NCBI GenBank assembly: GCA_019637155.1
Contig: JAHBWE010000031.1
Location: 1-64,000, forward strand
Origin: Labilithrix sp.
Lineage (GTDB): Bacteria > Myxococcota_A > Polyangia > Polyangiales > Polyangiaceae
Length of the DNA stretch: 64,000 nucleotides
Direction of reading: 5' to 3'
In this document: positions 14,034 to 48,918 of the stretch, piece after piece
How positions within the stretch are numbered: the stretch's first letter is position 1
Layout: each line of letters starts with the position of its first letter
Notes under the pieces: model-generated
Seen by the model: only the letters and a program-made list of their open reading frames with translations
What the model was told of the DNA's origin: nothing
The model's database searches: none
Made by a program: the position numbers and the translations under genes

Positions 14034-14089
14034 CGACCCACCTCCGCGCCGCGCCACAACCACGAACCGGGCCAACACCCGACCCCAAC

Positions 14090-14150
14090 GATTCCGCACC
14101 ATTGCCGCCCGTGACCATATGGCCCGTGCCGGCCAGGGCCAGGCCAGATG
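14090..14150 (+). repeat. intergenic block shared with the comM upstream region
   Basis: Contains CGTGACCATATGGCCCG followed by GCCAGGGCCAGGCCA. A related block in reverse complement lies at 36555-36620. Both copies lie upstream of DNA-uptake-type genes (the ComEA-like gene and comM) and in the same orientation relative to them. It may be a shared control element or a REP-like repeat. Confidence 0.6.
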
Positions 14151-14194
14151 CCAGCTAGAGCTCGCCCTGACCGCGGACGCTCGCCTCATCTCGC

Positions 14195-26281: not shown

Positions 26282-26300
26282 GTGGGAAAAACTGGCGTCG

Positions 26301-26387: not shown

Positions 26388-26400
26388 ATAAGTGATGCGG

Positions 26401-26473: not shown

Positions 26474-26482
26474 GTGGCGTAG

Positions 26483-26555: not shown

Positions 26556-26561
26556 AGACGG

Positions 26562-26630
26562 TCGCTACGGACAGAGTCGAACTGTCTCGACCGCGCTTAT
26601 GAGGCGCGCCGTCCTCCGAGGATCGCAGCG
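26562..26630 (-). tRNA. tRNA with CAT anticodon, shortened D-arm
   Basis: Acceptor CGCTGCG/CGTAGCG (one G-U), anticodon CTCATAA on a CGCGC/GCGCG stem, T-loop TTCGACT. The D-arm region has only about 15 nt. Met or Ile2; C1-G72 pairing argues against an initiator. Confidence 0.75.
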
Positions 26631-26676
26631 TCGGGCCGCGTCCTCGTTCTCGCCCGAAGGCGGTCACGAGGGCGGC

Positions 26677-26750
26677 TGGAGCGGTGACCGGGAATCGCAC
26701 CCGGATCTCGAGCGTGGCGGGCTCGGGTTCTGCTCTTGAACTACCACCGC
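26677..26750 (-). tRNA. tRNA-Gly(GCC) with C33
   Basis: Acceptor GCGGTGG/TCACCGC (one G-U), anticodon loop CCGCCAC, so position 33 is C instead of U. T-loop TGCGATT (G55). U73 with encoded CCA. Confidence 0.85.
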
Positions 26751-26782
26751 AAAATCGTGGGCGCGTCCGTCACACGCGCCGG

Positions 26783-26856
26783 AGCCATCCGAGGGAATTG
26801 CACCCTCCTCATTCCTCGCTACCAGTGAGGTGCCCCGCTGTCTGGGCGTGGACGGC
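26783..26856 (-). tRNA. tRNA-Thr(GGT)
   Basis: Acceptor GCCGTCC/GGATGGC, anticodon loop CTGGTAG with an A-C inner stem mismatch, T-loop TGCAATT (G55). Confidence 0.85.
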
Positions 26857-26930
26857 AAAGTCGAGCGATCGACAACGAGTGGTGCGCGCCGGGTCTCGCC
26901 CGGCGGCGCATTTGTCGTGCTCGGTGTCGG

Positions 26931-28484: not shown

Positions 28485-28561
28485 GGCTCTCGTGCGTTCT
28501 CCTTTCCGAGCGGGTTTCGTTGGTTGTCCGCGACCGCGCGGCTCGACGTGCGGTCGCGAAT

Positions 28562-28638
28562 TGGCGTTTCCTACGGGATTCGAACCCGTGTTCCTGGATT
28601 GAGAGCCCAGTGTCCTTGGCCGTCTAGACGAAGGAAAC
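28562..28638 (-). tRNA. tRNA-Glu(CTC)
   Basis: Acceptor GTTTCCT/AGGAAAC, anticodon loop CTCTCAA, T-loop TTCGAAT, G73 and encoded CCA. Confidence 0.94.
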
Positions 28639-28674
28639 GTGAATTGTGGTCATCCGAGTGAATCGAGCGCGATG

Positions 28675-28745
28675 TTCTTGATCCGGGAATCGAACCCAGA
28701 CTTTCAGTTTACGAGACTGACGCCCTACCTTTAGGCGAATCAAAA
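28675..28745 (-). tRNA. tRNA-Thr(CGT), copy 1
   Basis: Acceptor TTTTGAT/ATCAAGA, anticodon CTCGTAA on TCAGT/ACTGA, T-loop TTCGATT. No CCA. Confidence 0.88.
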
Positions 28746-28776
28746 GTGCGTGTAGGCTCGAACCGCGTGGATGACC

Positions 28777-28851
28777 TGGGTGCAGCGGTCGGATTCGCAC
28801 CGACGATCTCGAGCTTATGAGGCTCGCAGGATACTACTTCCCCACGCTGCA
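28777..28851 (-). tRNA. tRNA with CAT anticodon (Met/Ile2)
   Basis: Acceptor TGCAGCG/CGCTGCA, anticodon CTCATAA on CGAGC/GCTCG, T-loop TGCGAAT (G55), C73 with encoded CCA. Confidence 0.85.
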
Positions 28852-28866
28852 TAACTTGCTGCTTCG

Positions 28867-28936
28867 TACCTTCGCCGGGAGTCGAACCCGGTCCGCGAGC
28901 TTCGGAGGCTCGGCCCTGTTCCGTCAGGACGAAGGT
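28867..28936 (-). tRNA. tRNA-Arg(CCG)
   Basis: Acceptor ACCTTCG/CGAAGGT, anticodon CTCCGAA on CGAGC/GCTCG, T-loop TTCGACT, A73; short D-arm. Confidence 0.9.
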
Positions 28937-28937
28937 A

Positions 28938-29011
28938 TGGTCTCCTCGCCAGGAATCGAACCTGGACAACCGGCTTCGTAGACCGATGCGTAGAGCCACT
29001 ACGACGAGGAG
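28938..29011 (-). tRNA. tRNA-Arg(ACG)
   Basis: Acceptor CTCCTCG/CGAGGAG, anticodon loop CTACGAA, T-loop TTCGATT, A73 with encoded CCA. Confidence 0.92.
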
Positions 29012-29027
29012 AGGAGAGAGGTGGCGG

Positions 29028-29098
29028 TCTCTTCGCCAGGAATCGAACCTGGGGGATCGGCTTCGCTCGCCGATGCGTAGCTCCACTACGACGAAGAG
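29028..29098 (-). tRNA. tRNA-Arg(GCG)-like with A33, paralogue of tRNA-Arg(ACG)
   Basis: Very similar to its neighbour in acceptor, D-arm and T-arm (CTCTTCG/CGAAGAG), but the anticodon loop is GAGCGAA. Position 33 is A, and G34 replaces the usual A34. Possibly non-coding or decaying. Confidence 0.75.
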
Positions 29099-29104
29099 AG
29101 GGGT

Positions 29105-29186
29105 GCAGCGCGGCGAGTGAGGAAGGCGCGGGACTTACCTTTAGCCGAGGAAGTTGCGTGTAGGCCTTGCTCGAGAGCCGTGCGGC
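29105..29186 (-). pseudogene. permuted-tRNA unit remnant (flanks kept, tRNA mostly lost)
   Basis: Has the 5' flank with ACACGCAA (29154-29161) and the 3' flank with ACTC. Inner helix GAGCAAGGC/GCCTTCCTC and outer helix GCCGCACGGC/GCCGCGCTGC (two mismatches) still form. Between them only about 26 nt remain, with a D-arm-like GGCTAAAGGTAAG. No T-arm or acceptor. It directly follows a Ser-type tRNA, as unit f follows its paralogue. Confidence 0.7.
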
Positions 29187-29196
29187 GAGATCGGAG

Positions 29197-29286
29197 AGGA
29201 AGAAGGAGGTGTCGAACCCCACACGCCCTCATCGAGCGTGCGCATTGCTTTCAAGGCAGGCCCGGCTCCGCGCCGGTTCTTCTTCC
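29197..29286 (-). tRNA. tRNA-Ser(TGA)-like, class II
   Basis: Acceptor GGAAGAA/TTCTTCC, anticodon loop CTTGAAA, long variable arm, T-loop TTCGACA. Two outer anticodon-stem pairs and one T-stem pair are mismatched; short D-loop. U73. Confidence 0.75.
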
Positions 29287-29310
29287 ATATGCCTCGAGGG
29301 TGAAAATTCT

Positions 29311-29510
29311 GAGACGCGGCGAGTGAATCGGGCTGGGAGAATTGGCAACGTCTTATGAGGACGAAGGCGCGCCACCGCGCATACCTCCCGTATTGCCGCT
29401 CGCGCGGCGCGGCCCGGAGGCCGTGGTGGAAGGTCGTGGAGTCGAACCACTGTCTTTCTGGAAGGAAAGATTCTTGTTTGCGTGTATGCCCGATTCGATT
29501 GTCGCGTCTC
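29311..29510 (-). tRNA. circularly permuted tRNA, unit f (CAT anticodon, long variable arm)
   Basis: Order on the minus strand: 5' flank (29510-29478), variable arm, T-arm TTCGACT, acceptor ACCTTCC, A73 and encoded CCA (29434-29424), a 34-nt linker, then the 5' acceptor GGGAGGT (5' end 29389), D-arm, anticodon loop CTCATAA (anticodon 29357-29355), and the 3' flank. GGGAGGT pairs with ACCTTCC at all seven positions (one G-U). The flanks pair perfectly as GAGACGCG/CGCGTCTC and GAATCGGGC/GCCCGATTC, around ACAATC opposite ACTCGC. ACACGCAA is at 29485-29478. The variable arm TCTTTC/GAAAGA is class-II length, odd for a CAT tRNA. Confidence 0.85.
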
Positions 29511-29512
29511 GG

Positions 29513-29603
29513 AGGAAGAAAGAGGTGTCGAACCCCACACCCCTCGCTCGAGAGGTGCGCATTGTTTTCGAAACAAGCTCGGCGCCTTGCCGATTTTTCT
29601 TCC
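29513..29603 (-). tRNA. Ser-type class II tRNA, anticodon TCG or CGA
   Basis: Acceptor GGAAGAA/TTCTTCC, long variable arm, T-loop TTCGACA; paralogue of the tRNA at 29197. Standard numbering gives loop TTTCGAA and anticodon TCG (Arg); reading one base on gives CGA (Ser), which suits the class II body. Ends 2 bp before permuted unit f. Confidence 0.7.
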
Positions 29604-29626
29604 GTGTGGTCCCGCGGGTGCGGTCG

Positions 29627-29699
29627 TCGTCGGTGAGGGAGTCGAACCCTCTACGCGCAGCGTTTCAGACTGCCGCTCTACCACTTGAGCTTACCGACG
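29627..29699 (-). tRNA. tRNA-Phe(GAA)
   Basis: Acceptor CGTCGGT/ACCGACG, anticodon loop CTGAAAC, T-loop TTCGACT, A73. Confidence 0.93.
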
Positions 29700-29736
29700 T
29701 AGTTTCTTCGAAGTCGCCGCCCGAAGGCGGGCGCGG

Positions 29737-29824
29737 CGGAAGTTGGAGGACTCGAACCTCGATCGGCGTTCAGCCGACCGCACTGCTTTCCAAGCAGGCT
29801 CCGCGCCTCGCGGATCCACCTTCC
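29737..29824 (-). tRNA. tRNA-Ser(GGA)
   Basis: Acceptor GGAAGGT/AACTTCC (one G-A mismatch), anticodon loop TTGGAAA, long variable arm, T-loop TTCGAGT, G73. Confidence 0.85.
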
Positions 29825-29837
29825 ATTCATCGTTCGG

Positions 29838-29912
29838 TCAGGACGGCAGGATTCGAACCTGCGCTCTTCAGTCCCCCAGACTGACGCTTTTGCCAGGCTA
29901 AGCTACGCCCTG
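29838..29912 (-). tRNA. tRNA-Pro(GGG)
   Basis: Acceptor CAGGGCG/CGTCCTG, anticodon loop CTGGGGG on TCAGT/ACTGA, T-loop TTCGAAT, A73. Confidence 0.93.
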
Positions 29913-29986
29913 AATAGTTGGTCCAGTTTATGTCGTCGTGGACCAGGACGCGGGAGCTCCGCAGCGTGTTCATCGCCGCTCACACC

Positions 29987-30520
29987 TCAGGCCGAGAGCG
30001 GAGCCGGCTCCTGGAAGCCGTCGCAGTACGGCTGCCAGGTCTCCGGCAGGGCCCCGTCCGAGAGGCGGATGGGCGGGACGACGGGGAGCGAGGTCGGCTT
30101 CTTCGGCTGCCGCAGCAGCTTCATGCCGGCCTGCTCGGGCGTGCGGCTTCCCTTCCGATCGTTGCACGGGTAGCAGGAGGTGACGATGTTCTCCCAGACG
30201 GTCTTTCCTCCCTGCACACGAGGGACGACGTGGTCGTAGTTCAGCTGCTTGAGAGTCTTCTTCTCGCCGCAGTACTGGCACCGGAACTTGTCCCGGGTGA
30301 ACACGTTCACGCGGGAGAACCGGACAGACTGCTTCGTCGACACGGACCCCTTCTTCAGCCGGACGACGGCGGGGGTGAGCATCGTCGCGCTCGGGCCGCG
30401 GAGCTCCGCGTCCCAGGTCTCGATGACTTCGACCTTGCCGAGGTAGGTGAGGACGACGGCACGCTGCCAGGAGATGATTTTGTGGGGCGCCATCCAGGGG
30501 GTCAGCATCAGCGTTTGCAT
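29987..30520 (-). CDS. HNH endonuclease embedded in the tRNA array
   Basis: 177 residues from ATG 30520, with AAAGG upstream. The N-terminal half has the pattern WQRAVVLTYLGKVEVIE, then a linker with TRDKFRCQYCGEK. The HNH core is LNYDHVVPRVQGGKTVWENIVTSCYPCNDRKG by key residues: His of YDH, Asn of WEN, Asn of CND, with zinc cysteines CQYC and CYPC. This stand-alone HNH type is widespread in bacteria; substrate unknown. It sits on the array strand between tRNA-Leu(GAG) and tRNA-Pro(GGG). It could act on DNA (array spread) or, less likely, on RNA. Confidence 0.92.
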   Translation of the reverse strand: MQTLMLTPWMAPHKIISWQRAVVLTYLGKVEVIETWDAELRGPSATMLTPAVVRLKKGSVSTKQSVRFSRVNVFTRDKFRCQYCGEKKTLKQLNYDHVVPRVQGGKTVWENIVTSCYPCNDRKGSRTPEQAGMKLLRQPKKPTSLPVVPPIRLSDGALPETWQPYCDGFQEPAPLSA

Positions 30521-30613
30521 GGGGACTACCTTTTCTTTCTCGGTTTCACGGATGATCTCCTTGTCGGAGGGTTGAGAAAGAATCGGTTCTGCTGCTCAGG
30601 ATGATCGCGCTAG

Positions 30614-30696
30614 TGTCACCGGAGGGAGTCGAACCCTCACACCCGTTGGGGCGCAGCACCTCAAGCTGCTGTGTATGCCAATTCCACCACGGTGAC
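30614..30696 (-). tRNA. tRNA-Leu(GAG)
   Basis: Acceptor GTCACCG/CGGTGAC, anticodon loop TTGAGGT, class II variable arm, T-loop TTCGACT, A73. Confidence 0.92.
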
Positions 30697-30735
30697 GTAT
30701 CGCGTCCGTGAACCGCAAAAACGATCCTTGGACGA

Positions 30736-30814
30736 TGGTACCGACGGAGGGAGTCGAACCCTCACAACACACCGTTTCTGAGACGGCGTCCTCTACCAAT
30801 TGGGCCACGTCGGC
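30736..30814 (-). tRNA. tRNA with Leu(CAG) anticodon on a class I body
   Basis: Acceptor GCCGACG/CGTCGGT, anticodon CTCAGAA on GCCGT/ACGGT, T-loop TTCGACT, A73 and encoded CCA. The variable region is short (about 7 nt), unlike bacterial leucine tRNAs. Confidence 0.85.
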
Positions 30815-30964
30815 ATGTGGCACGTTCCGTCCGGGGACTCTCGCATGCGGCGCGCGGGCTATGCCCGAGCGTTGCGCATGGTCGTTTCCTCACGGAGCAG
30901 GCGTGCTCGTCTTGGAGCCTTTGACGGGATACCGGCGCGACGAAACGCCGGTGGCTCTCTTGAG

Positions 30965-31039
30965 TCCGTGTAGGAGGATTCGAACCTCCAATCCCTCCGA
31001 CCCGAACGGAGTGCTCTAGCCAGGTTGAGCCATACACGG
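30965..31039 (-). tRNA. tRNA-Pro(CGG)
   Basis: Acceptor CCGTGTA/TACACGG, anticodon TTCGGGT on CTCCG/CGGAG, T-loop TTCGAAT, A73. Confidence 0.93.
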
Positions 31040-31099
31040 GTATGTTCGAAGAATTTCCATGTCACAGGTTCTCCTTCGCAGTGGGGTCCGAAGACCCGG

Positions 31100-31167
31100 T
31101 GGACGAGCCGGGAGTCGCGCCCGGTCGCTCTGTTTGCAAGACAGAGCCCTCACTCTGAGACAAGCCC
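31100..31167 (-). tRNA. degenerate tRNA-Ala(TGC)-like
   Basis: Good anticodon arm TCTGT-CTTGCAA-ACAGA and a T-stem CCGGG/CCCGG, but the T-loop is CGCGACT (C54, G55). The acceptor GGGCTTG/CTCGTCC has two mismatches, and the D-arm is a small CTCA-GAG-TGAG hairpin. A GGGTC-TTCG-GACCC hairpin follows at once. Confidence 0.5.
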
Positions 31168-31236
31168 GTTAGGCGCTACCCCACGCCGCCTGCCCATCGG
31201 GCCAGAGGCCCGCCGGGTCCGGCGTGGGACGCGTTG

Positions 31237-31309
31237 TACGGCGCGCGGGGATCGCACCCGCCTGGTCCTGTTAGTCATACAGGTACAGTCACTAGACTGC
31301 CAGCGCCGC
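31237..31309 (-). tRNA. tRNA-Val(GAC)
   Basis: Acceptor GCGGCGC/GCGCCGT, anticodon ATGACTA on CCTGT/ACAGG, T-loop TGCGATC (G55), A73. Confidence 0.87.
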
Positions 31310-31325
31310 TCGACGTTTCGTTCCG

Positions 31326-31398
31326 TGGATCACCTGCGAATCGAACGCAGTGCAAGCTCCTTATCAGAGAGCCCAGGGTAACCATCCCGTCGTGATCC
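31326..31398 (-). tRNA. tRNA-Ile(GAT)
   Basis: Acceptor GGATCAC/GTGATCC, anticodon loop CTGATAA, T-loop TTCGATT, A73. Confidence 0.92.
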
Positions 31399-31404
31399 GT
31401 GCAG

Positions 31405-31473
31405 AGAGCCGAGAGGGAGTTGAACCCTCACGCGCCGGGTTGCAGCCGGCGATCCTCGCCGGAGAATCGGCTC
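31405..31473 (-). tRNA. tRNA-Cys(GCA)
   Basis: Acceptor GAGCCGA/TCGGCTC, anticodon CTGCAAC on GCCGG/CCGGC, T-loop TTCAACT, U73 as expected for Cys; D-arm short. Confidence 0.9.
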
Positions 31474-31485
31474 GTGTCGTGTCGT

Positions 31486-31560
31486 TGGAGCGGACAGAGG
31501 GAATCGCACCCTCATTCTCGGTTTGGAAGACCGATATCCTGGCTATTAGACGATGCCCGC
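31486..31560 (-). tRNA. tRNA-Gly(TCC)
   Basis: Acceptor GCGGGCA/TGTCCGC, anticodon CTTCCAA on TCGGT/ACCGA, T-loop TGCGATT (G55), U73 with encoded CCA. Confidence 0.9.
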
Positions 31561-31886
31561 GTATCGTATATTCAAAAAAGCCTCGACGAGATTGACGAAG
31601 ACGTTAGCGTCCGCCCGGTCGCCCGGGCTTCTGCAATCGGCACATTGAGCGTCCCTCGCGGTTCGCCCCGTTCGCCCCGCAGGAGGGAGTCCGCCGAGGC
31701 GGTACCCGAACGTCCGCGCGCTGGGTCGGCGCGCCTACGTCCCACTCCTTCACTGCCGTCGCTGGATGGGTCGCCCCATCATCGCTACCTTAGGACCGTT
31801 ATAGTTACGGATGTAGTCCTCATCGGCATTCGAGACCGACGTTCCGTGTCGTTTCGTTTCGTTTCGTATCGTTTCGTGTCCCTTCG
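31561..31886. other. 326-bp gap in the tRNA array without a recognised gene
   Basis: No T-loop or anticodon arm was found. A GTTTC/GTATC pentamer run lies near 31848-31880; a related TCGTG run precedes the tRNA at 32232. Nothing else could be assigned. Confidence 0.5.
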
Positions 31887-31959
31887 TGGAATCGGCCGGA
31901 ATCGCACCGGCAACCTCCTCGATGCCATCGAGGCGCTCTCCTGTTTGAGCTACGATCCC
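31887..31959 (-). tRNA. tRNA-Ala(GGC)
   Basis: Acceptor GGGATCG/CGATTCC, anticodon ATGGCAT on CCTCG/CGAGG, T-loop TGCGATT (G55), A73. Confidence 0.9.
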
Positions 31960-31961
31960 GC

Positions 31962-32035
31962 TGGTGGAGCGACGGGGAATCGCACCCCGATCTATGCGAT
32001 GCGAACGCATCGTTCTCCTGTTGAACTATCGCCCC
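31962..32035 (-). tRNA. tRNA-Ala(CGC)
   Basis: Acceptor GGGGCGA/TCGCTCC, anticodon TTCGCAT on ATGCG/CGCAT, T-loop TGCGATT (G55), A73 with encoded CCA. Confidence 0.9.
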
Positions 32036-32067
32036 AGCTCTCTCGTGTCACGCGCCGCAGCGCGCAG

Positions 32068-32138
32068 CGGGCCGCGAAGGAATCGAACCCTCTCTCCGGG
32101 TTTTGGAGGCCCGGCCGGTCACCATGACTCTGCAGCCC
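32068..32138 (-). tRNA. tRNA-Trp(CCA)
   Basis: Acceptor GGGCTGC/GCGGCCC, anticodon CTCCAAA with an imperfect top pair, T-loop TTCGATT, G73; reduced D-arm. Confidence 0.85.
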
Positions 32139-32143
32139 ATCAG

Positions 32144-32215
32144 CGCCTCGTACGGGAATCGAACCCGTCTCGTCCCATAGACAGTGGGATCGCCACGCCA
32201 GTAGCGTTACGAGGC
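32144..32215 (-). tRNA. tRNA-Asp(GTC), conventional copy
   Basis: Acceptor GCCTCGT/ACGAGGC, anticodon CTGTCTA on TCCCA/TGGGA, T-loop TTCGATT, G73. A permuted Asp(GTC) unit lies at 32666. Confidence 0.9.
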
Positions 32216-32231
32216 ATTTCGTGTCGTGTCG

Positions 32232-32308
32232 TGTCGTGTCCTCGGCAGGAGTCGAACCTGCCTATGCCGGTTTAGAAGACCGGCGCCTATCCGATCGGCC
32301 ACGAGGAC
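32232..32308 (-). tRNA. tRNA-Arg(TCT)
   Basis: Acceptor GTCCTCG/CGAGGAC, anticodon CTTCTAA, T-loop TTCGACT, A73; near-paralogue of the next tRNA. Confidence 0.94.
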
Positions 32309-32318
32309 GTTGTCTGGG

Positions 32319-32391
32319 CGTCCCCGGCAGGAGTCGAACCTGCGTCGAACCGGCTTAGGAGGCCGGCGCCTTTCCGTTCGGCCACGGGGAC
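32319..32391 (-). tRNA. tRNA-Arg(CCT)
   Basis: Acceptor GTCCCCG/CGGGGAC, anticodon CTCCTAA on CCGGC/GCCGG, T-loop TTCGACT, G73. Confidence 0.94.
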
Positions 32392-32451
32392 GCGCGCCTT
32401 TTCCTTTCGGCCTGGTCGCGCGTCTTTCCTTCCGGTCCGAGGACCGGTCGG

Positions 32452-32523
32452 GGTGGCGTGCGGGGATTGCACCCGCCTCCACTGATTCACAGTCAGTCCT
32501 CGTCACTAGACGAGTAACGCCAC
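32452..32523 (-). tRNA. tRNA-His(GTG), conventional copy
   Basis: Acceptor GTGGCGT/ACGCCAC, anticodon CTGTGAA on ACTGA/TCAGT, T-loop TGCAATC (G55), C73. The base before G1 is C, so the usual encoded G-1 is missing. Confidence 0.88.
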
Positions 32524-32557
32524 GTAGAACCGGCGTCGCCTCGCGGCGGCGGCCGGC

Positions 32558-32632
32558 TGGTACTCCCGGTCGGAATCGAACCGACACCTTCCGCTTGAAA
32601 GACGGAGATCCTGACCACTAGATGACGGGAGC
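32558..32632 (-). tRNA. tRNA-Glu(TTC)
   Basis: Acceptor GCTCCCG/CGGGAGT, anticodon CTTTCAA, T-loop TTCGATT, A73 with encoded CCA. Confidence 0.93.
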
Positions 32633-32665
32633 AGACACGCAGCGACGCTGCGTGCGGGAGAGTTA

Positions 32666-32807
32666 TCGTCCGAGTGAGCAAGCCGTTGTCTGTGAAGACG
32701 GCTTGACAGGCCGGTGTCCTACCATTGGACGACAGCTGCTGAGACGCAGTTGGCTGGATTCGAACCAGCATATTCCTTTGCGTGTGAGGCCTGCTCGAAC
32801 GGACGAA
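32666..32807 (-). tRNA. circularly permuted tRNA-Asp(GTC), unit e
   Basis: Minus-strand order: 5' flank, ACACGCAA (32785-32778), T-arm GCTGG-TTCGAAT-CCAGC, acceptor CAACTGC, G73 (32745), a 5-nt linker, 5' acceptor GCAGCTG (5' end 32739), D-arm GTCC/GGAC, anticodon loop CTGTCAA (anticodon 32707-32705), 3' flank. Acceptor strands match at 6 of 7 positions. Flank helices are GAGCAGGCC/GGCTTGCTC and TCGTCC/GGACGA, with internal loop GTTC opposite ACTC. G73 and GTC fit Asp identity. Confidence 0.85.
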
Positions 32808-32821
32808 GTCTTGAAAATTTT

Positions 32822-32996
32822 GTCGCGGCCCGAGTGCGAAAACCAGGTGCTTTGGATCATTTCACGAATGATTGCCTTACCGTTAGGCTACGGGCACCGT
32901 GCGCTCTTGCGAGCAGAGCCTCGCGGCTCGGGGTACCCGGTTGGAGTCGAACCAACTTTGGATTGCGTGTAGGGTCTTCTTCGATGGGCTGCGAAC
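32822..32996 (-). tRNA. circularly permuted tRNA-His(GTG), unit d
   Basis: T-arm GTTGG-TTCGACT-CCAAC and acceptor CGGGTAC with C73 precede a 33-nt linker and the 5' half GGTGCCCG (G-1 at 32898). GTGCCCG pairs with CGGGTAC at 7 of 7 (one G-U), and G-1 faces C73, the histidine identity pair. D-arm GCCT/AGGC; anticodon loop TCGTGAA (anticodon 32865-32863) has C33. ACACGCAA is at 32970-32963. Flanks pair less regularly than in the other units (CGAAGA with TTTTCG, and a bulged GC-rich outer helix). Confidence 0.83.
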
Positions 32997-33349
32997 ATTC
33001 TTTGGCGATGCGGCCTGCGCATCGCGGAAAAGGAGCGTCAGGTCGGCGTGGGGCTCGCCTGACGGGGAGCTCGAGGTGAGCTCGGATGCGCTCGCGGGGA
33101 CGGAGCGGCGGGGCGGCCGGGGTGAGGGCCGCTCGCTCGCCGGACTCGAACGTCCGTGCGGCGCGGGAACTTTATGCATCGTCGCTCTCGTTGTCGAGTG
33201 GCGACTTCGGTTTTTTCTTTCTTCGGAGCTTGCTCTCGCCGCCGAGAGCGCAGTTGAGAGCTCGCCTCGGCGCCGAGAGCGTCGGCGCCGCCGAGGCAAC
33301 TCTCGCTTTCGTTCGAGCGTTCCCGCCTACGAGACGGTGGCTCCACCTG
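32997..33349. other. 353-bp gap in the array; one degenerate T-arm-like hairpin
   Basis: A minus-strand CGGAC-GTTCGA-GTCCG hairpin near 33141-33156 resembles a T-arm with a 6-nt loop, but no acceptor or anticodon arm could be paired to it. GCCGAGAGCG/CGCCGAGAGC repeats occur at 33240-33285. No protein gene supported. Confidence 0.4.
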
Positions 33350-33422
33350 AGCCCGTGTCCGGATTCGAACCGGAACCTTCCCGTTTACAAGACGGGGGCT
33401 CGTCCACTCGAGCTGCGCGGGC
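33350..33422 (-). tRNA. tRNA-Thr(TGT)
   Basis: Acceptor GCCCGCG/CACGGGC (one C-A mismatch), anticodon CTTGTAA on CCCGT/ACGGG, T-loop TTCGAAT. Confidence 0.9.
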
Positions 33423-33497
33423 GATTTGCGCCGCGCTATTCTGTGTCGGCGGCGCTTGCTTCGCAAGTGCCTAGTGTCGATTTGTTTTCATCGTCGG

Positions 33498-33569
33498 AGC
33501 CCACGTCCGGGATCGAACCGGATCCTCCCGTTTACGAGTCGGGTGCTCGTCCTATCGAGCTACGCGGGC
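33498..33569 (-). tRNA. tRNA-Thr(CGT), copy 2
   Basis: Acceptor GCCCGCG/CGTGGGC, anticodon CTCGTAA with an A-A inner mismatch, T-loop TTCGATC; paralogue of tRNA-Thr(TGT) next door. Confidence 0.88.
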
Positions 33570-33638
33570 AGTGCTCGCGGTGCGCGCGGACCGTCAGCGA
33601 GAGACGGCGCGCGCCGGCGCGAGCAGCGGAAAAGTTTT

Positions 33639-33803
33639 CTTCGTCCGAGTGAGGAAGTCAGGTGTCTTTTCAGACTCGTTTTCTAGACGAGCGCCTCTAC
33701 CAATTGGGCTATCGCTCCCAGACGCCCTTGCGGAGGCCGGGGACCGAGTTGGAGTCGAACCAACACTTGAAATTGCGTGTGTGACCTTCTCGAGTGGGCG
33801 AAG
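33639..33803 (-). tRNA. circularly permuted tRNA, unit b (anticodon AGA)
   Basis: T-arm GTTGG-TTCGACT-CCAAC and acceptor TCGGTCC (33747-33741) precede a 21-nt linker and the 5' half GGAGCGA (5' end 33718). The strands pair at 6 of 7 (one G-G). D-arm GCCC...AGGC, anticodon stem CTCGT/ACGAG, loop CTAGAAA (anticodon 33684-33682), then a GTCT-GAAA-AGAC hairpin. ACACGCAA at 33780-33773. Inner flank helix GAGAAGGTC/GACTTCCTC, internal loop ACTC/ACTC, outer helix CTTCGCCC/GGACGAAG. Confidence 0.83.
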
Positions 33804-33806
33804 CAG

Positions 33807-33857
33807 CTTCAACGGAAGGAGTCGAACCTTCGACGCACCGATCCGATCGGCGTTGAA
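33807..33857 (-). ncRNA. mini-tRNA b: acceptor plus T-arm without anticodon arm
   Basis: TTCAACG/CGTTGAA acceptor stem, T-arm GAAGG-TTCGACT-CCTTC, and only 19 nt between (a CCGA/TCGG hairpin where D and anticodon arms should be). It ends 3 nt before the 5' flank of unit b. An ACCCGC/GCGGGT hairpin with a 7-nt loop TCCAGAC lies just upstream (33860-33879), resembling a detached anticodon arm. Confidence 0.7.
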
Positions 33858-33886
33858 GACCCGCGTCTGGAGCGGGTGAAATAGAC

Positions 33887-34077
33887 CTTTCGTCCGAGTG
33901 AAGAAGCCGGGTCTTTTCAGACTCGTTTCCATAACGAGCGCCTTACCATTAGGCAACCGACCCAGGTGCCGTCGTGCGACGGAGCCATGCGCGGCGTACC
34001 GCGCGCGGCTTGTGGATCGGGTCGGATTCGAACCGACATTTCTATTTGCGTGTAGGGCCTTTTCGGGTGGACGAAAG
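33887..34077 (-). tRNA. circularly permuted tRNA, unit a (anticodon TGG)
   Basis: T-arm GTCGG-TTCGAAT-CCGAC and acceptor CCGATCC, A73 (34013) precede a 49-nt linker and the 5' half GGGTCGG (5' end 33963). The strands pair at 7 of 7 (one G-U). D-arm GCCT/AGGC, anticodon stem CTCGT/ACGAG, loop TATGGAA (anticodon 33931-33929) with A33, then a GTCT-GAAA-AGAC hairpin. ACACGCAA at 34053-34046. Flanks: CTTTCGTCC/GGACGAAAG perfect outer helix, ACCC/ACTC loop, GAAAAGGCC/GGCTTCTTC inner helix. Confidence 0.87.
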
Positions 34078-34122
34078 TGGATCCAACGGAAGGAGTCGAA
34101 CCTTCGCGTGCCGAGCGTTGGA
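34078..34122 (-). ncRNA. mini-tRNA a: 45-nt acceptor/T-arm RNA with encoded CCA
   Basis: TCCAACG/CGTTGGA acceptor, T-arm GAAGG-TTCGACT-CCTTC, U73 and CCA. Only 10 nt (CTCGGCACGC) replace the D and anticodon arms. It abuts the 5' flank of unit a. Its T-arm and acceptor resemble those of tRNA-Asn at 34319, from which it may derive by internal deletion. Confidence 0.7.
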
Positions 34123-34160
34123 TGTCGTGTCGCGCCATCGTGGCGCTGCTTTAAGAGGTT

Positions 34161-34316
34161 GCTCGTCCGAGTGAGGAAGTCGTTTCGATTTCTCGTTGAA
34201 GCGAGGTGCCTTACCATTAGGCTACGCGCCGGGGTTGGAGGGGAATTCCCCGGGCGGCACGGTTGGATTCGAACCAACATGTTCTTGCGTGTATGACCTC
34301 TTCGAGGGGACGAAGC
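34161..34316 (-). tRNA. circularly permuted tRNA, unit c (anticodon TCA)
   Basis: T-arm GTTGG-TTCGAAT-CCAAC and acceptor CGTGCCG, C73 precede a linker of about 22 nt containing GGGGAATTCCCC, then the 5' half CGGCGCG (5' end 34231). The strands pair at 7 of 7 (one G-U). D-arm GCCT/AGGC; CTCG/CGAG stem with a 6-nt loop CTTCAA, anticodon TCA (34199-34197). ACACGCAA at 34292-34285. Inner helix GAAGAGGTC/GACTTCCTC, CCTC/ACTC loop, outer helix around CTTCGTCC/GGACGAG. Confidence 0.82.
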
Positions 34317-34318
34317 AG

Positions 34319-34390
34319 CTCCAGCGGAAGGAATCGAACCTTCGAATCTCCGGTTAACAGCCGGGTGCCTGACCATTCGGCTTCGCTGGA
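34319..34390 (-). tRNA. tRNA-Asn(GTT)
   Basis: Acceptor TCCAGCG/CGCTGGA, anticodon CTGTTAA, T-stem GAAGG/CCTTC with TTCGATT, G73. Directly upstream of permuted unit c. Confidence 0.92.
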
Positions 34391-34546
34391 ATGAGCTCGT
34401 GGCAGCATGCGCGAGGGTGCGTGCCACGGGGCGGTCGATCGACGAGCGATCTCCCGACACGAGGAGCACACCACACGCGCATGCGCGACGAGCGTGTTGA
34501 CGCCAGGTTTTCAGAGAGCGGGGACCCACGTCGTGAGTCCGTGCAG

Positions 34547-34618
34547 TTCCGGGTACAGGATTCGAACCTGTCTTTCTGGGTTCAGAGGCCAGTGTCCTGC
34601 CAGCTAGACGATCCCGGA
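34547..34618 (-). tRNA. tRNA-Gln(CTG)
   Basis: Acceptor TCCGGGA/ACCCGGA (A-A at the last pair), anticodon CTCTGAA on CTGGC/CCCAG, T-loop TTCGAAT. Confidence 0.88.
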
Positions 34619-34661
34619 GCAGAGACAGACGAGTCGACGCGCGAGCGCGGCGTCTCGTCGG

Positions 34662-34733
34662 TGGGTCCGGAGGGAGTCGAACCCTCAACATGCCGGGTAA
34701 GAGCCGGATGCGCTGCCGTTGCGCCACGGACCC
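34662..34733 (-). tRNA. tRNA-Lys(CTT)
   Basis: Acceptor GGGTCCG/CGGACCC, anticodon CTCTTAC, T-loop TTCGACT, A73. Confidence 0.93.
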
Positions 34734-35179
34734 GTGGCGAGATGAGTTGTGCGAGTCAGCGCCGACGTCGCCGGCGGAAGGAGTGAGGTGGAGGATCAGC
34801 CAGAGAGGCGACGAGAAGTCATGTCGCGAGCGAGACGATCACGAACGAGGAGAGCGCGACGCATGGGCGTGGGCGAACGAGCAGAGCAAGCTCTGCGTGA
34901 GAAGTGACGAGGAACGCGAGAGCGCGGACGAAGCGCGGGTGAGGAGTGACGAGGAACGCGCGAGCGCGGACGAAGCGCGGGGTGAGGAGCGCGGACGAAG
35001 CGCGGGTGAGGAGCGACGACGACGAACGGAGGGTGCGGAACGACGAGCGCGGGTGAGGAGTGACGGCGAGGCACGTGGGAGAGGAACGTGGACGACGAGC
35101 GCCATGCGCGAGCGCGCCGGAGCGTCATGCGTGAGCGCGCCTGGGGGGGGCGAAGCGAGCGTGAGCGTCGTGTGTGGGG
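34734..35179. repeat. 446-bp array gap with 42-bp degenerate tandem repeats
   Basis: Copies begin near 34904 and 34946, with a shortened third near 34987. Cores are GTGACGAGGAACGCG and GAGCGCGGACGAAGCGCGG. The plus-strand frame through it encodes only Arg/Glu/Ser low complexity, and I do not accept it as a gene. Confidence 0.6.
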
Positions 35180-35252
35180 TGGGGCGCGAGGGGGTCGAAC
35201 CCTCATCCCTCGGGGTAAAAGCCCGGTGCTCGGCCGATTGAGCTAGCGCCCC
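35180..35252 (-). tRNA. tRNA-Lys(TTT), first tRNA of the array
   Basis: Acceptor GGGGCGC/GCGCCCC, anticodon CTTTTAC, T-loop TTCGACC, A73. Confidence 0.94.
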
Positions 35253-36209: not shown

Positions 36210-36490
36210 GGGCTCTCGACGCGGCGGCAGCATGGATCGTGGCGCCGGATGCGCGATGACGAGCAAGCCGAGGCCATCACTGGGCTCTCGACGCGGCGGC
36301 AGCATGGAGTGTGGCGCCGGATGCGCGCCCGAGGACATCACCGGCAGGCCGAGGACATCACCGGGCTCTCGACGCGGCGGCAGCATGGAGTGTGGCGCCG
36401 GATGCGCGATATCGAGCAGGCCGAGGACATCACCGGCCTCTCGACGCGGCGGCAACGTGGAGCGCGGCGCCTGGTTCGCGCGATGTCGTC
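36210..36490. repeat. four imperfect tandem repeats of 71-81 bp
   Basis: Copies start near 36210, 36282, 36363 and 36434. Shared cores are CTCTCGACGCGGCGGCA, TGGCGCCGGATGCGCG and GCCGAGGACATCACC. They stand 150-430 bp upstream of comM. Confidence 0.8.
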
Positions 36491-36554
36491 CCGGCAGTAC
36501 GTTGGCTGTGAAGAGGTCGTGGAGAACGCGTGCATGACGCAGGCTTTGGGGTGG

Positions 36555-36620
36555 CCCCTGGCCTGGCCCTGGCCTGGCCGGGCCATATGGTCACGCGTTC
36601 CAACGGCGCGTAATCGCTCG
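36555..36620 (-). repeat. block shared with the ComEA-like gene upstream region
   Basis: Reverse complement of a relative of 14090-14150; contains CCTGGCCTGGCCCTGGCC and GGGCCATATGGTCACG. Ends 15 bp before the comM start. Confidence 0.6.
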
Positions 36621-36634
36621 GGCGCGATGTCGGC

Positions 36635-38203
36635 ATGGCGTTCGCTTTCGTCGCGGGCATGCTCGCCATCGCCGAGAGCGCTGTTCTCACGGGGGTCACC
36701 GCCCAGCCGGTTCGCGTGGAGGTGCGCGCCGAGGCAGGCATCCCTGCGTTCGAGCTCGTCGGGCTGGCCGAGACGACCGTCCGCGAGAGCCGCGTCCGCG
36801 TGAAGGCGGCGCTCGAGAACGTCGGGATCAAGATCAACGAGCATCGCATCACCGTGAACCTCGCGCCGGCGGACGTGAGGAAGAACGGGAGCTCGTTCGA
36901 TCTCGCGATCGCGATCGGGACGCTGGTCGCGCTCGAGCAGCTGCCGCAGACGGCGATCGCGGGCGTGCTGCTGCTCGGAGAGCTCTCGCTCAGCGGACGC
37001 GTCCACGCGCTGCGCGGTGCGGTCGCTCATCTCGTCGGGGCGCGCGAGCGCGGCGTCGCGCGCGCGATCATGCCGCTCGCGAACGAGGAAGAGGCGTCGC
37101 TCGTCGATGGCGTCGACGTCGGGCTCGCCGCGACGCTCGGCGAGATCGTCCAGGCGCTGCGCGGCGCGGAGCCTCTCGCGCGTCCCCGGCGCTCGGACGT
37201 GCTCGAACGACGCGCCTGGCTGGTCGACGATCTCGCCGACGTTCGCGGACAGCACGGCGCGAGGCGCGCGCTCGAGGTCGCCGCCGCCGGCGGGCACAAC
37301 CTCCTCATGATGGGCCCGCCCGGCGCGGGGAAGACGATGCTCGCGCGGAGGCTGCCGGGGATCCTGCCCTCGCTCACGCGCGAAGAGCGGCTCGAGGTCC
37401 TCGCGATTCACGGCGTGGCGGGCCTCCTCGGCGTGCACTCGGTGAACGAGCGGCCGTTCCGCGCGCCGCATCACACCGTGAGCGAGTTCGCCCTCGTCGG
37501 CGGCGGCGAGCACGTGCGGCCGGGAGAGGTGAGCCTCGCGCATCATGGGGTGCTCTTCCTCGACGAGCTCGCCGAGCTCCGCCGCTCCGCGCTCGAGGCG
37601 CTGCGGCAGCCGCTCGAGGACGGCGCCGTCACCGTGTGCCGGATGCGCGCGACGACGACGTTCCCCGCGCGGCCGATGCTCGTCGGCGCGACGAACCCGT
37701 GTCCGTGCGGCAACCGCGGCGACGGCACGATGCGCTGCACCTGCGCCGCCGACGCCGTGCGCGCGTACCGGCGTCGTCTGAGCGGTCCCCTGCTCGACCG
37801 GCTCGACGTGCACGTCGTCCTGCCGCGCGTCGAGCTCGCCGACCTGCAAGGCGGCGCGCGCGGAGAGGCGAGCGCCGACGTGCGGGCGCGCGTGACCCGA
37901 GCGCGAGAGGTGCAGCTCGCGCGCTTCAGGGCCGGCGAGACGAGCGCGGCGACGAACGCCCACCTGGCGCAACGCGACGTGGAGCGGATCTGCGCGCTCG
38001 ACACGAAGACGCGGTCGCTCCTCGCAGCGGCGGTGGAGCGGCGTGGGCTGTCCGCGCGCGGCTACGGGAAGGTGCTCCGCGTCGCGCGGACCATCGCCGA
38101 CCTCGCCGGCGTCGATCCGGTCCGGCACGCGGACGTGAGCGAAGCGCTCGCGGCGCGCGTTCTCGACCGCGACCTCGAAGGTCACCCCGCGTCCGCGGCG
38201 TGA
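36635..38203 (+). CDS. comM: ComM/YifB-family Mg-chelatase-like AAA+ ATPase
   Basis: 522 residues. The N-terminal Lon-protease-like S5 fold (about 1-165; VEVRAEAGIPAFELVGLAETTVRESR) is followed by an AAA+ domain with Walker A GPPGAGKTMLARRLPG, Walker B HHGVLFLDELAE and sensor GATNPCPCG. It then has the MCM/ChlI-type CPCGN cysteine cluster and a C-terminal helical domain (ARGYGKVLRVARTIADL). ComM is a hexameric branch-migration helicase acting on RecA-coated recombination intermediates during natural transformation. The gene is directly upstream of recA with a 58-bp gap. Confidence 0.95.
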   Translation: MAFAFVAGMLAIAESAVLTGVTAQPVRVEVRAEAGIPAFELVGLAETTVRESRVRVKAALENVGIKINEHRITVNLAPADVRKNGSSFDLAIAIGTLVALEQLPQTAIAGVLLLGELSLSGRVHALRGAVAHLVGARERGVARAIMPLANEEEASLVDGVDVGLAATLGEIVQALRGAEPLARPRRSDVLERRAWLVDDLADVRGQHGARRALEVAAAGGHNLLMMGPPGAGKTMLARRLPGILPSLTREERLEVLAIHGVAGLLGVHSVNERPFRAPHHTVSEFALVGGGEHVRPGEVSLAHHGVLFLDELAELRRSALEALRQPLEDGAVTVCRMRATTTFPARPMLVGATNPCPCGNRGDGTMRCTCAADAVRAYRRRLSGPLLDRLDVHVVLPRVELADLQGGARGEASADVRARVTRAREVQLARFRAGETSAATNAHLAQRDVERICALDTKTRSLLAAAVERRGLSARGYGKVLRVARTIADLAGVDPVRHADVSEALAARVLDRDLEGHPASAA

Positions 38204-38261: not shown

Positions 38262-39290
38262 ATGTTCGCAGAGCTCGCAGAGAAGATGAAGGCGCTGAAG
38301 GGCGTCATCGGGTCGGTGGAGAAGCAGTTCGGCAAGGGCGCGATCATGTCGCTCGGGGACGACGGTGAGCTCGAGCCCGTGCCGACGATCCCGACGGGAT
38401 CGCTCGCGCTCGACCTCGCGACCGGCATCGGCGGATATCCGCGCGGCCGCGTCGTCGAGGTCTACGGTCCGGAGTCGAGCGGCAAGACCACGCTGTCGCT
38501 CCACGCGATCGCGCAGGCGCAGCGCGCGGGCGGCGTGTGCGCGTTCATCGACGCGGAGCACGCCTTCGACGTGGCCTACGCGCGCTCGATCGGCGTCGAG
38601 ACCGACAAGCTGCTCGTGTCGCAGCCGGACACGGGCGAGCAGGCGCTCGAGATCGTCGACATGCTGATCCGCTCGGGCGCGATCGACCTCGTCGTCGTGG
38701 ACTCCGTCGCCGCGCTCGTGCCAAAGGCCGAGATCGAGGGCGAGATGGGCGACCATCACATGGGCGTCCAGGCGCGGCTCATGAGCCAGGCGCTCCGGAA
38801 GCTCACCGCCGTCGCGCATCGCACGGGGACCACCATCATGTTTATCAATCAGCTCCGTCAGAAAATAGGCGTCGTCTTCGGCAATCCCGAGACCACGACC
38901 GGCGGCAACGCGCTGAAGTTCTACGCGTCGATGCGGCTCGACGTCCGCCGCATCGGTCAGGTGAAGGTCGGCGACGAGCTCGTCGGCGGACGTACTCGCG
39001 TAAAGCTCGCAAAAAACAAAATGGCACCTCCATTTTGCGAAGCGGAGTTCGATATTCGATACGGGCAGGGCGTCGACACGCTCACGGAGCTCGTCGATCT
39101 CGGGCTCACGCGCGGGCTCGTCGAGAAAAGTGGGAATCACCTCTCGTTCGCGGGGACCACCCTCGGGAACGGGCGGGAGCGCTCGCGCGACGCGATCGCC
39201 GCGAATCAGGAGCTTCAGACGACGCTGCGGCAGGCCATCCTCGCGTCCGGTCCGGTGCGGCCCGGCCGGCGCGCGGACGCCGCGGCGTGA
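38262..39290 (+). CDS. recA: recombinase RecA
   Basis: 342 residues, ATG 38262. Walker [11 protein letters not shown], Walker [14 protein letters not shown], the L1 loop [23 protein letters not shown] and L2 loop [15 protein letters not shown] are intact. IDAEHAFDV replaces the common IDAEHALDP. Forms the strand-exchange filament and would coactivate LexA. Myxobacteria often carry two recA genes; whether this is the principal copy cannot be told. AT-rich codons occur locally (about 38840-39070), including a CAAAATGG/CCATTTTG hairpin. Confidence 0.96.
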
Positions 39291-44819: not shown

Positions 44820-46115
44820 TCAGCGGCGCTTCGGGTCGAGGCCGTGCTTCTGCGCGAGCTGGTGCAGGTACATGCGGTCCATCTTTGCGTCGCGGGCGGC
44901 CTTGCTGAAGTTGCCGCCGGTGCGGGTGAGGAGCGGCTCGAGGTAGGACTTCTCGAACTCCGCGATCGCCGCCTCCTTCGCCTCCTTGAACGGGACCGTC
45001 GCCGCCTCCTCCGGCGAGTAGCGGCGGACCGTGCCGCTGCGATGCGGGAGCGACGCGTCGGAGAGGACCAGGCTGCGCTCGACGTGGTTGCGGAGCTCGC
45101 GCACGTTGCCGGGCCAGTCGTGGCGCGCGAGGTCGGCGAGGACCGCGTCGTCGATCGCGCGCGGGCGGCCGAGCGCTTGGAGGAACGCGCGCGCGAGGAG
45201 CGGGACGTCGTCGAGGCGCTCGCGCAGCGGCGGGATGCGGACGGTGAGCTTCGCGAGGCGATAGTAGAGGTCCTCGCGGAAGCGGCCGCGGTTCACCTCC
45301 GGCTCGAGGTCGCGGTTCGTCGCCGCGATGACGCGGACGTCGACGCGCTTGCCGCGGTTCTGCCCCACGCGCCGGACCTCGCGGTTCTCGAGCGCGCGGA
45401 GGAGCTTCGGCTGGAGCTCGAGCGGGAGCTCGCCGATCTCATCGAGGAAGAGCGTGCCGCCGTCGGCCGCTTCGAAGGCGCCCTCGCGCTCGCGGTCGGC
45501 GCCGGTGAAGGCGCCGCGCACGTGGCCGAAGAGCTCGCTCTCGACGAGCGAAGGCGAGATCGCTCCGCAGTCGACGACGACGAGCGGGCCGTCGGCGCGC
45601 GCGCTCCGCTGGATGATCTCCGTCGCGACGAGCTCCTTGCCGGTGCCGCTCTCGCCGAGGACGAGCGTGTCGATGTCGCTCGCGGCGACGCGCTCGACGA
45701 TCTCGAAGAGACGGAGCATCGGCGGGCTCGCGCCGACGAGCGCGCCGAACGAGTCGCGCGGCGGCGGCGCGGACGTGTGCGTCTTGCCGGGGACGAGGCG
45801 CAGTGTCGTGTCGCCGAGCGTGAGCGTCGCCTCGCGCTCGACCTCGGCGACGAGCACGCGCACGCCGTCGAGACGTGTGCCGTTGAGCGAGCCGGAGTCG
45901 GTGAGGCGCCAGCGACCGTTCTCGCGCGTGAGCCGGCAGTGGAAGCGCGACACCGTCGCGTCGTCGAGCACGAGCTCGTTCGAGGGATGCGAACCGATCC
46001 GCACGACGTCGTCGCCGTAGACGCGCGCGCCGATCGCGATCGTCGCGTGCTCGGTCATGAGGCCGAGGAGCGGGTTGGTCCGCTTTGCGAGCGTCGGTTC
46101 CTCTCGGCGCCGCAT
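44820..46115 (-). CDS. FHA-domain sigma54 activator 1
   Basis: 431 residues, ATG 46115 (a GTG precedes it). The FHA domain (about 20-110) has RIGSHPSNELVL, SRFHCRL and GSLNGTRL. The AAA+ domain has GESGTGKEL (Walker A), the sigma54 loop GAFTGAD and FLDEIGEL (Walker B). The C-terminal Fis-type HTH reads GGNFSKAARDAKMDRMYLHQ. It has no receiver domain: phosphothreonine recognition should control it, so the adjacent divergently placed kinase region is a plausible input (inference). Confidence 0.94.
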   Translation of the reverse strand: MRRREEPTLAKRTNPLLGLMTEHATIAIGARVYGDDVVRIGSHPSNELVLDDATVSRFHCRLTRENGRWRLTDSGSLNGTRLDGVRVLVAEVEREATLTLGDTTLRLVPGKTHTSAPPPRDSFGALVGASPPMLRLFEIVERVAASDIDTLVLGESGTGKELVATEIIQRSARADGPLVVVDCGAISPSLVESELFGHVRGAFTGADREREGAFEAADGGTLFLDEIGELPLELQPKLLRALENREVRRVGQNRGKRVDVRVIAATNRDLEPEVNRGRFREDLYYRLAKLTVRIPPLRERLDDVPLLARAFLQALGRPRAIDDAVLADLARHDWPGNVRELRNHVERSLVLSDASLPHRSGTVRRYSPEEAATVPFKEAKEAAIAEFEKSYLEPLLTRTGGNFSKAARDAKMDRMYLHQLAQKHGLDPKRR

Positions 46116-46126
46116 CACCTTGGAGC

Positions 46127-47283: not shown

Positions 47284-48918
47284 ATGGCCCATCCCAAGAT
47301 GCCCGCTCGTCCCCAGACCCCGTCGGCTCCGGTCGCCCCGCTGGCGCCCCAAATTCCGTCGGCTGGGAAGAGCTCCTCGGGGATCGCCCCGCGTCCGCCG
47401 GCTTCCATTCCGCCCGCGGCGATTCCGCCTTCACCGCCGGTCCCGCAGGCGCTCGCGGAGCCGAGCTATCCGGAGCCGAACCCGACCATCCCGGACATCG
47501 AGCCGCCGGTCGCGAGCGGGGTCCAGGCGCCGAGGAGCATCCAGACCGTCCGCCAGCTGGTGGAGACGGTCTCGGTCCCCCGCGTCTCGCTCACGATCGA
47601 GCGCGAGGGCGGGATGCCCGCGAACCGCACCATCGTGCACGACGGCGACGTCTGCAAGATCGGCTCGCACGCCTCGAACGACATCGTCCTGCGCGACCCG
47701 ATGGTCTCGCGCTTCCACTGCCGCCTCGTGCGCGAGGACGGCGTGTGGCGCCTCCGCGACTCCGGCTCGATGAACGGGACGAAGCTCGAGAACGTCCGCG
47801 TCCGCGACGCCGACCTCGCGGAGGGCGGCGTGCTCGGCCTCGGCGACTCGATCGTCCGCATCCGCGCGGGCGCGCCGCAGAAGGAAGACATCGTCCCGAT
47901 GCTGCCGTCGTTCGGCGCGCTCGTGGGGACGAGCATGCCGATGCGCCGCCTCTTCGGGCTTCTCGACAAGATCGCGCAAAGCGACATCAACGTCTTGATC
48001 GAGGGCGAGAGCGGCACCGGCAAGGAGCTCGTCGCGACGGAGATCATGCAGCGCAGCGCGCGCGCGGACAAACCGTTCGTCGTCGTCGACTGCGGCGCGA
48101 TCAGCCCCGCGCTGATCGAGAGCGAGCTCTTCGGTCACATCCGCGGCGCGTTCACGGGCGCCGACCGCGATCGCATGGGCGCGTTCGAGGCCGCCGACGG
48201 CGGCACCGTGTTCCTCGACGAGCTCGGCGAGCTCCCGCTCGAGCTGCAGCCCAAGCTGCTGCGCGCCCTCGAGGCGCGCGAGATCCGCCGCGTCGGCGAG
48301 ACCCGCGCGCGCCGGGTGAACGTCCGCGTCATCTCGGCGACGAACCGCGACCTCGAGCGCGAGGTCAACAAGGGTCGCTTCCGCGAGGACCTCTACTTCC
48401 GCATCGCCGTCATCAGCGCGCGCGTGCCCCCGCTCCGCGAGCGCCTCGACGACATGCTGCTGCTCGTCCGCACCTTCCTCTCGCAGCTCGGGGTCCCGGA
48501 GGAGGAGCGCCTCTTCGGACAGCAGGCCCTCTCCGAGATGGCGAAGCACGACTGGCCCGGCAACGTGCGCGAGCTCCGCAACTACGTCGAGCGCAGCGTC
48601 GTCCTCCAGTCGGCGAGCCCCGCGCTCCGCCGCGGTCAGAACGGCGCGGTCGGCGTCGCGACCTCCGGCCCCGCGAACGGCATCGACCTCTCGGTCCCGT
48701 TCCGCATCTCGAAGGACGCCGTGATCGACTCGTTCGAGCGCGGCTACCTCTCGCAGCTCCTCGAAGCGGCGGGCGGCAACATGAGCAAGGCCGCCCGCAT
48801 GGCGGGGATGGACCGCATGTACCTCCACCGCCTCGTCCAGAAGCACGGCCTCCGCGGCGGCCGCTCCACCGCCCCGCCGAGCGAGTCGCTCCGCGCGGCG
48901 ACGCCGATCCTCAAGTAG
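47284..48918 (+). CDS. FHA-domain sigma54 activator 2
   Basis: 544 residues. A 95-residue Pro-rich N-terminus precedes the FHA domain (about 105-195; [27 protein letters not shown]), AAA+ ([24 protein letters not shown]) and a Fis-type HTH ([20 protein letters not shown]). Closely similar to the activator at 44820 over FHA, AAA+ and HTH, so the two are paralogues separated by one gene in opposite orientation. Confidence 0.95.

Follow-up and report, generated by a model that had tools for sequence, protein, structure and literature searches.

The block shared by the upstream regions of comM and of a comEA-like gene in Labilithrix sp. is, judged from its letters and its copies, probably a promoter module of the sigma-54/enhancer-binding-protein type that serves a dispersed regulon of DNA-uptake and recombination genes. 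This regulon would likely act as a competence switch. The two genes lie in the window, a stretch of 64,000 nucleotides (assembly GCA_019637155.1, contig JAHBWE010000031.1, positions 1 to 64,000). The block was followed from there through the source genome (G000; 10.1 Mb, 46 contigs) and through relatives. The module, its copies, their spacing, the genes downstream and the conservation are read directly in the DNA.

The shared block in the window

According to the original prediction, comM and a ComEA-like gene are both preceded, in the same relative orientation, by a shared block of about 60 bp. Such a block is present. A comparison of repeats within the window yielded 83 nt at 77% identity (14071-14153 versus 36552-36634), and the genome-wide alignment extends the similarity to 36646 on the comM side and to 14058 on the comEA side. 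The predicted similarity is thus real, while the predicted size was too small. The distances to the gene starts are unequal, as predicted, with comM beginning 13 nt after the -12 box and comEA 26 nt after it. The 13-mer CCATATGGTCACG occurs exactly twice in the window, at 14110-14122 (minus strand) and at 36583-36595 (plus strand). With up to two mismatches, 0.42 matches are expected in the window, and 4 of 100 shuffles gave at least two; the 13-mer by itself is therefore weak evidence. A repeat-type core had also been proposed. Repeats are present, but the CCATATGG core is not essential; this palindrome was ruled out as the core, since the TATGGTCACG/TAGGGTCACG stretch is missing from 11 of the 22 aligned copies. 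In the alignment, the conserved essence of the block is the upstream dyads together with a sigma-54 type -24/-12 box (Table 1).

Directly upstream of the comM module, positions 36210-36481 hold three tandem direct-repeat copies (119 nt in register, spaced 72-81 nt). In about 9 kb just upstream of comM (26196-35252), 35 minus-strand tRNA genes form an unusually dense array.

Table 1. Features of the window that belong to the module, its target genes and the candidate regulators
Feature	Position	Strand	Basis and remarks
comM upstream activating sequence (putative)	36552..36585	+	TGGCC repeats; second dyad TGGCCGGGCCA at 36575-36585; 22-copy alignment; dyad position kept in comM of other genera
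comM sigma-54 type -24/-12 box	36631..36646	+	CGGCATGGCGTTCGCT, GG-N10-GC; also backed by the independent comM set
comM, YifB family Mg chelatase-like AAA ATPase	36659..38203	+	TIGR00368, 532 bits (cut-off 362); Pfam; predicted leaderless
recA, second gene behind comM	38262..39290	+	TIGR02012, 506 bits; PF00154
comEA upstream activating sequence (putative)	14120..14153	-	TGGCATCTGGCCTGGCCC...GGGCCA; copy alignment
comEA -24/-12 box	14059..14074	-	TGGCCCGGTTCGTGGT, GG-N10-GG, departs from GC at -12
comEA-like gene, helix-hairpin-helix protein, 154 aa	13569..14033	-	TIGR00426, 63.8 bits (cut-off 53.1); PF12836
FHA-domain sigma-54 enhancer-binding protein, candidate regulator only	47284..48918	+	PF00158 match; GAFTGA in sequence
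Paralogous FHA-domain enhancer-binding protein, divergent to the 47284-48918 gene, candidate only	44820..46118	-	Pfam; sequence

Copies in the genome and in congeners

A 111-bp stretch served as the query in the source genome. The 22 full copies align with at most two gaps over 99 columns. A sequence-only model was built from them, which these 22 match by construction. The model search retrieved 25 copies in the 10.1-Mb genome (E up to 6e-8, noise from 0.007), comprising the 22 full copies, two copies cut at contig ends and one partial copy (L072); the last three are excluded from the copy statistics. The same search found 79 copies in 8 of 11 congeners. No copy was accepted in the relatives outside these eight, where a single match in G016 reads as the interior of an activator gene and was dropped.

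The two cut copies (L070 and L071) lie exactly at the ends of contigs C22 and C4, suggesting an assembly break in the repeat. In L072 (G000:C1:299845-299898), the -24/-12 box is absent and the enhancer part continues directly into a truncated gene of the PD-(D/E)XK-like family. In the congener G003, the genes behind three copies (L104, L111 and L157) are transposase-like and have an MSNH motif; two of them are 98% alike. This arrangement possibly reflects the capture of a promoter by a mobile gene.

Promoter box and dyads

The sigma-54 consensus is TGGCAYRN4TTGCW, in which GG and GC are separated by N10. All 22 full copies carry GG at -24, and 19 of them read GG-N10-GC; the other three, comEA included, depart at -12. 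The best copies read TGGCATGN4NTGCT at the box. Towards its 5' end the module is conserved as TGGC..CTGGC.TGGCCC...GGCCA, towards its 3' end as GG. Spacing and surrounding letters very likely mark the box as a promoter of the sigma-54 -24/-12 type. Sites of the TGGCAYRN4TTGCW form are listed in parts of a study on Ralstonia solanacearum (PMC4371752).

Alignment of 32 comM upstream regions on the -24 element revealed two peaks of dyad symmetry separated by 21.5 bp, at -71.5 (z 8.8) and -50 (z 5.2). Enhancer-type dyads are expected at about -70 to -110, and the two centres agree with such a placement. Provided that the box is of the sigma-54 type, the distance from the dyads to the transcription start would be about 70-100 bp, as is usual for enhancer sites. 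A third symmetry peak, as high as that at -50, was discarded as an enhancer dyad because it coincides with the -24 element itself. Most congeners have TGGCC as their half-site; TGTCC is found in G005, G007 and some other genera, TGGCGG in Polyangium and others. The two arms vary in concert from genus to genus (TGGCC/GGCCA, TGTCC/GGACA, TGGCGG/CCGCCA); the sequence varies, while position and symmetry are kept. A protein-binding site with drifting specificity would look like this.

The distance from the -12 box to the start codon is bimodal. It amounts to 12-17 nt in 12 of the 22 genes (13 nt in eight; 12-14 nt in 10 of the 22 copies) and to 43-48 nt in eight genes for Uma2 proteins, with intermediate values for a protease (23 nt) and comEA. 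A GGAGG-type stretch precedes the start of several Uma2 genes and that of comEA. Sigma-54 transcripts start about 12 nt after GC. By this rule the first group should be leaderless, and the mRNAs of the core genes would begin at the start codon or within about 2 nt of it.

Genes behind the module

The first genes behind the 22 full copies are comM, comEA, comEC, ssb, radC, two genes for XPB-like helicases, one for a SWIM protein, eight for Uma2 proteins, one for a trypsin-type protease, one for a PD-(D/E)XK-like protein and four others. Pfam recognized six of the Uma2 targets; the other two, L054 and L056, are nearly identical to L050. Pfam describes Uma2 proteins as putative restriction endonucleases. 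The module is carried by both uptake genes, comEA and comEC, and on the recombination side by comM-recA and ssb. The recA gene lies 58 bp behind comM, and 27 of 30 relatives likewise have a recA match next to comM; in G037 this match is on the opposite side and strand. The genome holds two recA and two ssb genes, one of each in the regulon.

Assuming 9000 genes in the genome, at least 5 of 22 copies would fall on 12 to 30 such genes with a chance of 4e-11 to 7e-9. The genome-wide search for copies returned non-random targets and no random scatter among unrelated genes. The proposal of a competence-regulon control element gains support from the copies that precede comM-recA, comEA, comEC, ssb and radC; we infer the competence function of the block from this gene content.

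Three of the 79 congener copies had no usable open reading frame and were dropped. The remaining 76 downstream proteins comprise, by Pfam, 14 Uma2, 6 SSB, 6 RadC, 5 HHH_3, 4 Mg_chelatase (ComM), 3 trypsin, 2 ResIII and 1 Competence (ComEC), and homologs of 55 of the 76 occur among the 22 proteins encoded behind the copies of the source genome. The start distances in the congeners (11-14 nt in 53 of 76) come from an open reading frame picker that favoured starts 10-16 nt away; the earlier assignment of reading frames carried no such bonus.

The L051-type family was checked for the PD-(D/E)XK motif D...ExQ/K. Five proteins have invariant AD and EVQ residues in common. By structure prediction (mean pLDDT 83), the fold is closest to the Pyrococcus repair endonuclease 2vld_B (VIA Z 9.0, rmsd 3.0 over 102 residues), with Z 8.6 for EndoMS (NucS/EndoMS), over about residues 4-135. 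Foldseek returned a best E of 0.02 and none below 0.001. On the predicted fold, the family is likely a nuclease.

Conservation in relatives

In a test that did not use the copy model, relatives were scored for a box in front of comM, comEC and dprA. At least five of eight further positions were required besides GG-N10-GC. For comM, such a box lies 12-16 nt before the start in 28 of 30 relatives (25 of 30 at 12-15 nt). The background rate in the same loci was 60 of 18128 ATG/GTG (0.33%), counted per start codon, while the comM tests, here and in the named loci below, took the best of several in-frame starts. For comEC, 24 of 30 relatives have some qualifying site, which by our reading stands at the N-terminal start in 22 of 30. 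The box was found at none of 30 dprA loci, whose scanned regions were shorter than those of comEC. At least eight dprA and comEC loci were left out of the scoring.

The nearest named comM genes are those of Polyangium (60-61%). Among 78 readable named comM loci, from which L458 and L464 were left out, all four myxobacterial ones (both Polyangium species and two Myxococcales genomes) carry the box, as against 0 of 74 non-myxobacterial loci. A wider survey covered 54 comM loci, L315 being left out as too short. The strict box was found in 6 of 7 loci of the same family and in 5 of 5 from other orders of the class; of the 15 loci from other families of the order, three had it and 12 did not. Outside the class, 12 of 27 comM loci have a box at any distance, only one of them at 12-16 nt; there is no fixed distance, and no phylum-wide claim is therefore made.

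Proposed mechanism

In the proposed mechanism, an AAA+ enhancer-binding protein would bind the two dyads (half-site about TGKCS; centred some 71.5 and 50 bp upstream of -24, two helical turns apart). Once bound, it would activate the sigma-54 RNA polymerase that waits at the GG-N10-GC box. The module would switch on a dispersed regulon, in which comEA and comEC would serve uptake, and ssb, comM and recA would protect and integrate the incoming strand. The genes for RadC, helicases, Uma2 and PD-(D/E)XK-like proteins would be further members. We infer the use of sigma-54, the activator, the absence of leaders from the transcripts and a function in natural transformation from the arrangement described above. 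Several observations speak against this reading: the core transformation gene dprA is without the box at all 30 loci, 8 of the 22 targets are the unexplained Uma2 proteins, three copies (comEA included) depart at -12, the strict box is missing from 12 of the 15 comM loci of other families of the order and keeps no fixed distance outside the class, and the pilin promoter behind the PilR-like gene is without the dyad.

Candidate activators

The genome contains 96 matches to the sigma-54 activator domain, most of them full-length; two of FHA type are located in the window (Table 1). A relative of the 47284-48918 gene (72-82% identity) lies about 3-19 kb from comM in five congeners. None was found within 20 kb of comM in G008, and a neighbour gene is conserved as well, so the synteny with comM is not specific. 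This FHA activator is one candidate among several. The FHA pair lies within an inverted repeat (I1), and the congeners examined seem to hold one such gene near comM. The half-site of PilR is TGTC. PilR was a weak lead on this ground and was set aside, as the pilin promoter behind a PilR-like gene has no dyad of this kind. A comparison by way of small genomes gave four reciprocal families common to G000, G008 and G022 in addition to an FHA family; none is linked to com genes, and this route was abandoned.

Alternative explanations

The main rival to the competence reading is a DNA-damage regulon. The same sigma-54 module would run a LexA-independent damage and repair response, in which comEA and comEC are passengers that supply repair templates or nucleotides. 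This is a minority possibility. In its favour, recA, ssb, radC and the XPB-like helicases are repair genes. For Myxococcus xanthus, parts of one paper (PMC12288472) cite damage induction independent of LexA and an earlier study in which mitomycin C strongly induced ssb, and they name three sigma-54-dependent regulators as rising with damage. These LexA-independent responses keep the repair explanation alive. On the other side, comEA, comEC and comM are genes of uptake and transformation, and the second recA and second ssb fit dedicated copies. Term searches in portions of Myxococcus damage papers met neither comEC in one (PMC12288472) nor comEA in another.

A nuclease-rich defence or DNA-processing response that recruited competence genes is improbable. 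It would account for the Uma2, PD-(D/E)XK-like, helicase and RadC proteins; Uma2 makes up 8 of 22 targets in the source genome and 14 of 76 in congeners, and the PD-(D/E)XK-like family has its best fold matches in NucS/EndoMS. The deepest conserved members are, however, comM-recA and comEC, while the nucleases vary between species.

It is very unlikely that another sigma factor reads the promoter and that GG-N10-GC is incidental. The departures at -12 in some copies would agree with this, but independent loci carry GG-N10-GC at a constant position, with a background of 0.3%, no sigma-70-type match was found in 36400-36700, and the sigma-54 activator-domain matches in the genome are numerous. 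A dispersed mobile or REP-like element lying by chance before genes, the alternative named in the original prediction, can practically be dismissed: copies are many and near-identical, some in G003 precede transposase-like genes and L072 is fused into a truncated gene, yet the copies are not independent of gene identity and orientation as REP or MITE elements would be, their geometry to the start codons is fixed, and orthologous comM sites persist across genera with diverged sequence and kept symmetry.

Relation to known systems

Known sigma-54/bacterial enhancer-binding protein regulons include the NtrC, PilR and Nla types. The putative regulon resembles them in the -24/-12 box, the upstream dyads at enhancer distance and the many enhancer-binding proteins in the genome. 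It differs in its targets, which are DNA-uptake and recombination genes, and in the start distance of 12-14 nt, which implies leaderless core mRNAs. Competence regulons elsewhere include those of ComK, ComX/SigX, TfoX/Sxy-CRP and QstR. They share the coordinate control of comEA, comEC, ssb, comM, recA and radC-type genes at dispersed sites; the sigma-54 type promoter with dyad enhancers is different here, and dprA is apparently outside.

In Ralstonia solanacearum, rpoN1 is needed for natural competence, which the portions available of one study explain through the type IV pilin gene pilA (PMC4371752). Sigma-54 is needed for natural transformation there, and a box of apparent sigma-54 type is found here; unlike in R. 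solanacearum, it stands directly in the promoters of the com genes, ssb and comM-recA. No sigma-54 competence regulon in myxobacteria was described in the open-access literature searched, and the words competence, recA and DNA uptake are not used in the accessible portion of a large sigma-54 promoter survey (PMC12316311). Control of myxobacterial competence through a sigma-54 regulon has apparently not yet been described, as far as this literature search shows.

The element points to its target genes, and it could be used as DNA bait for the activator or as a reporter sequence. The last could be tried in cultured Polyangium, whose comM has the same type of box. The odds are about even for the broader proposal that natural transformation in myxobacteria of the Polyangiaceae type is under a dedicated sigma-54 regulon, with a dyad that co-evolves with its activator, leaderless core mRNAs and the expanded Uma2 and PD-(D/E)XK-like families as members. 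The element ties the Uma2 proteins to a defined programme. If the proposal is true, these widespread and unexplained proteins would gain a place in DNA uptake or integration.
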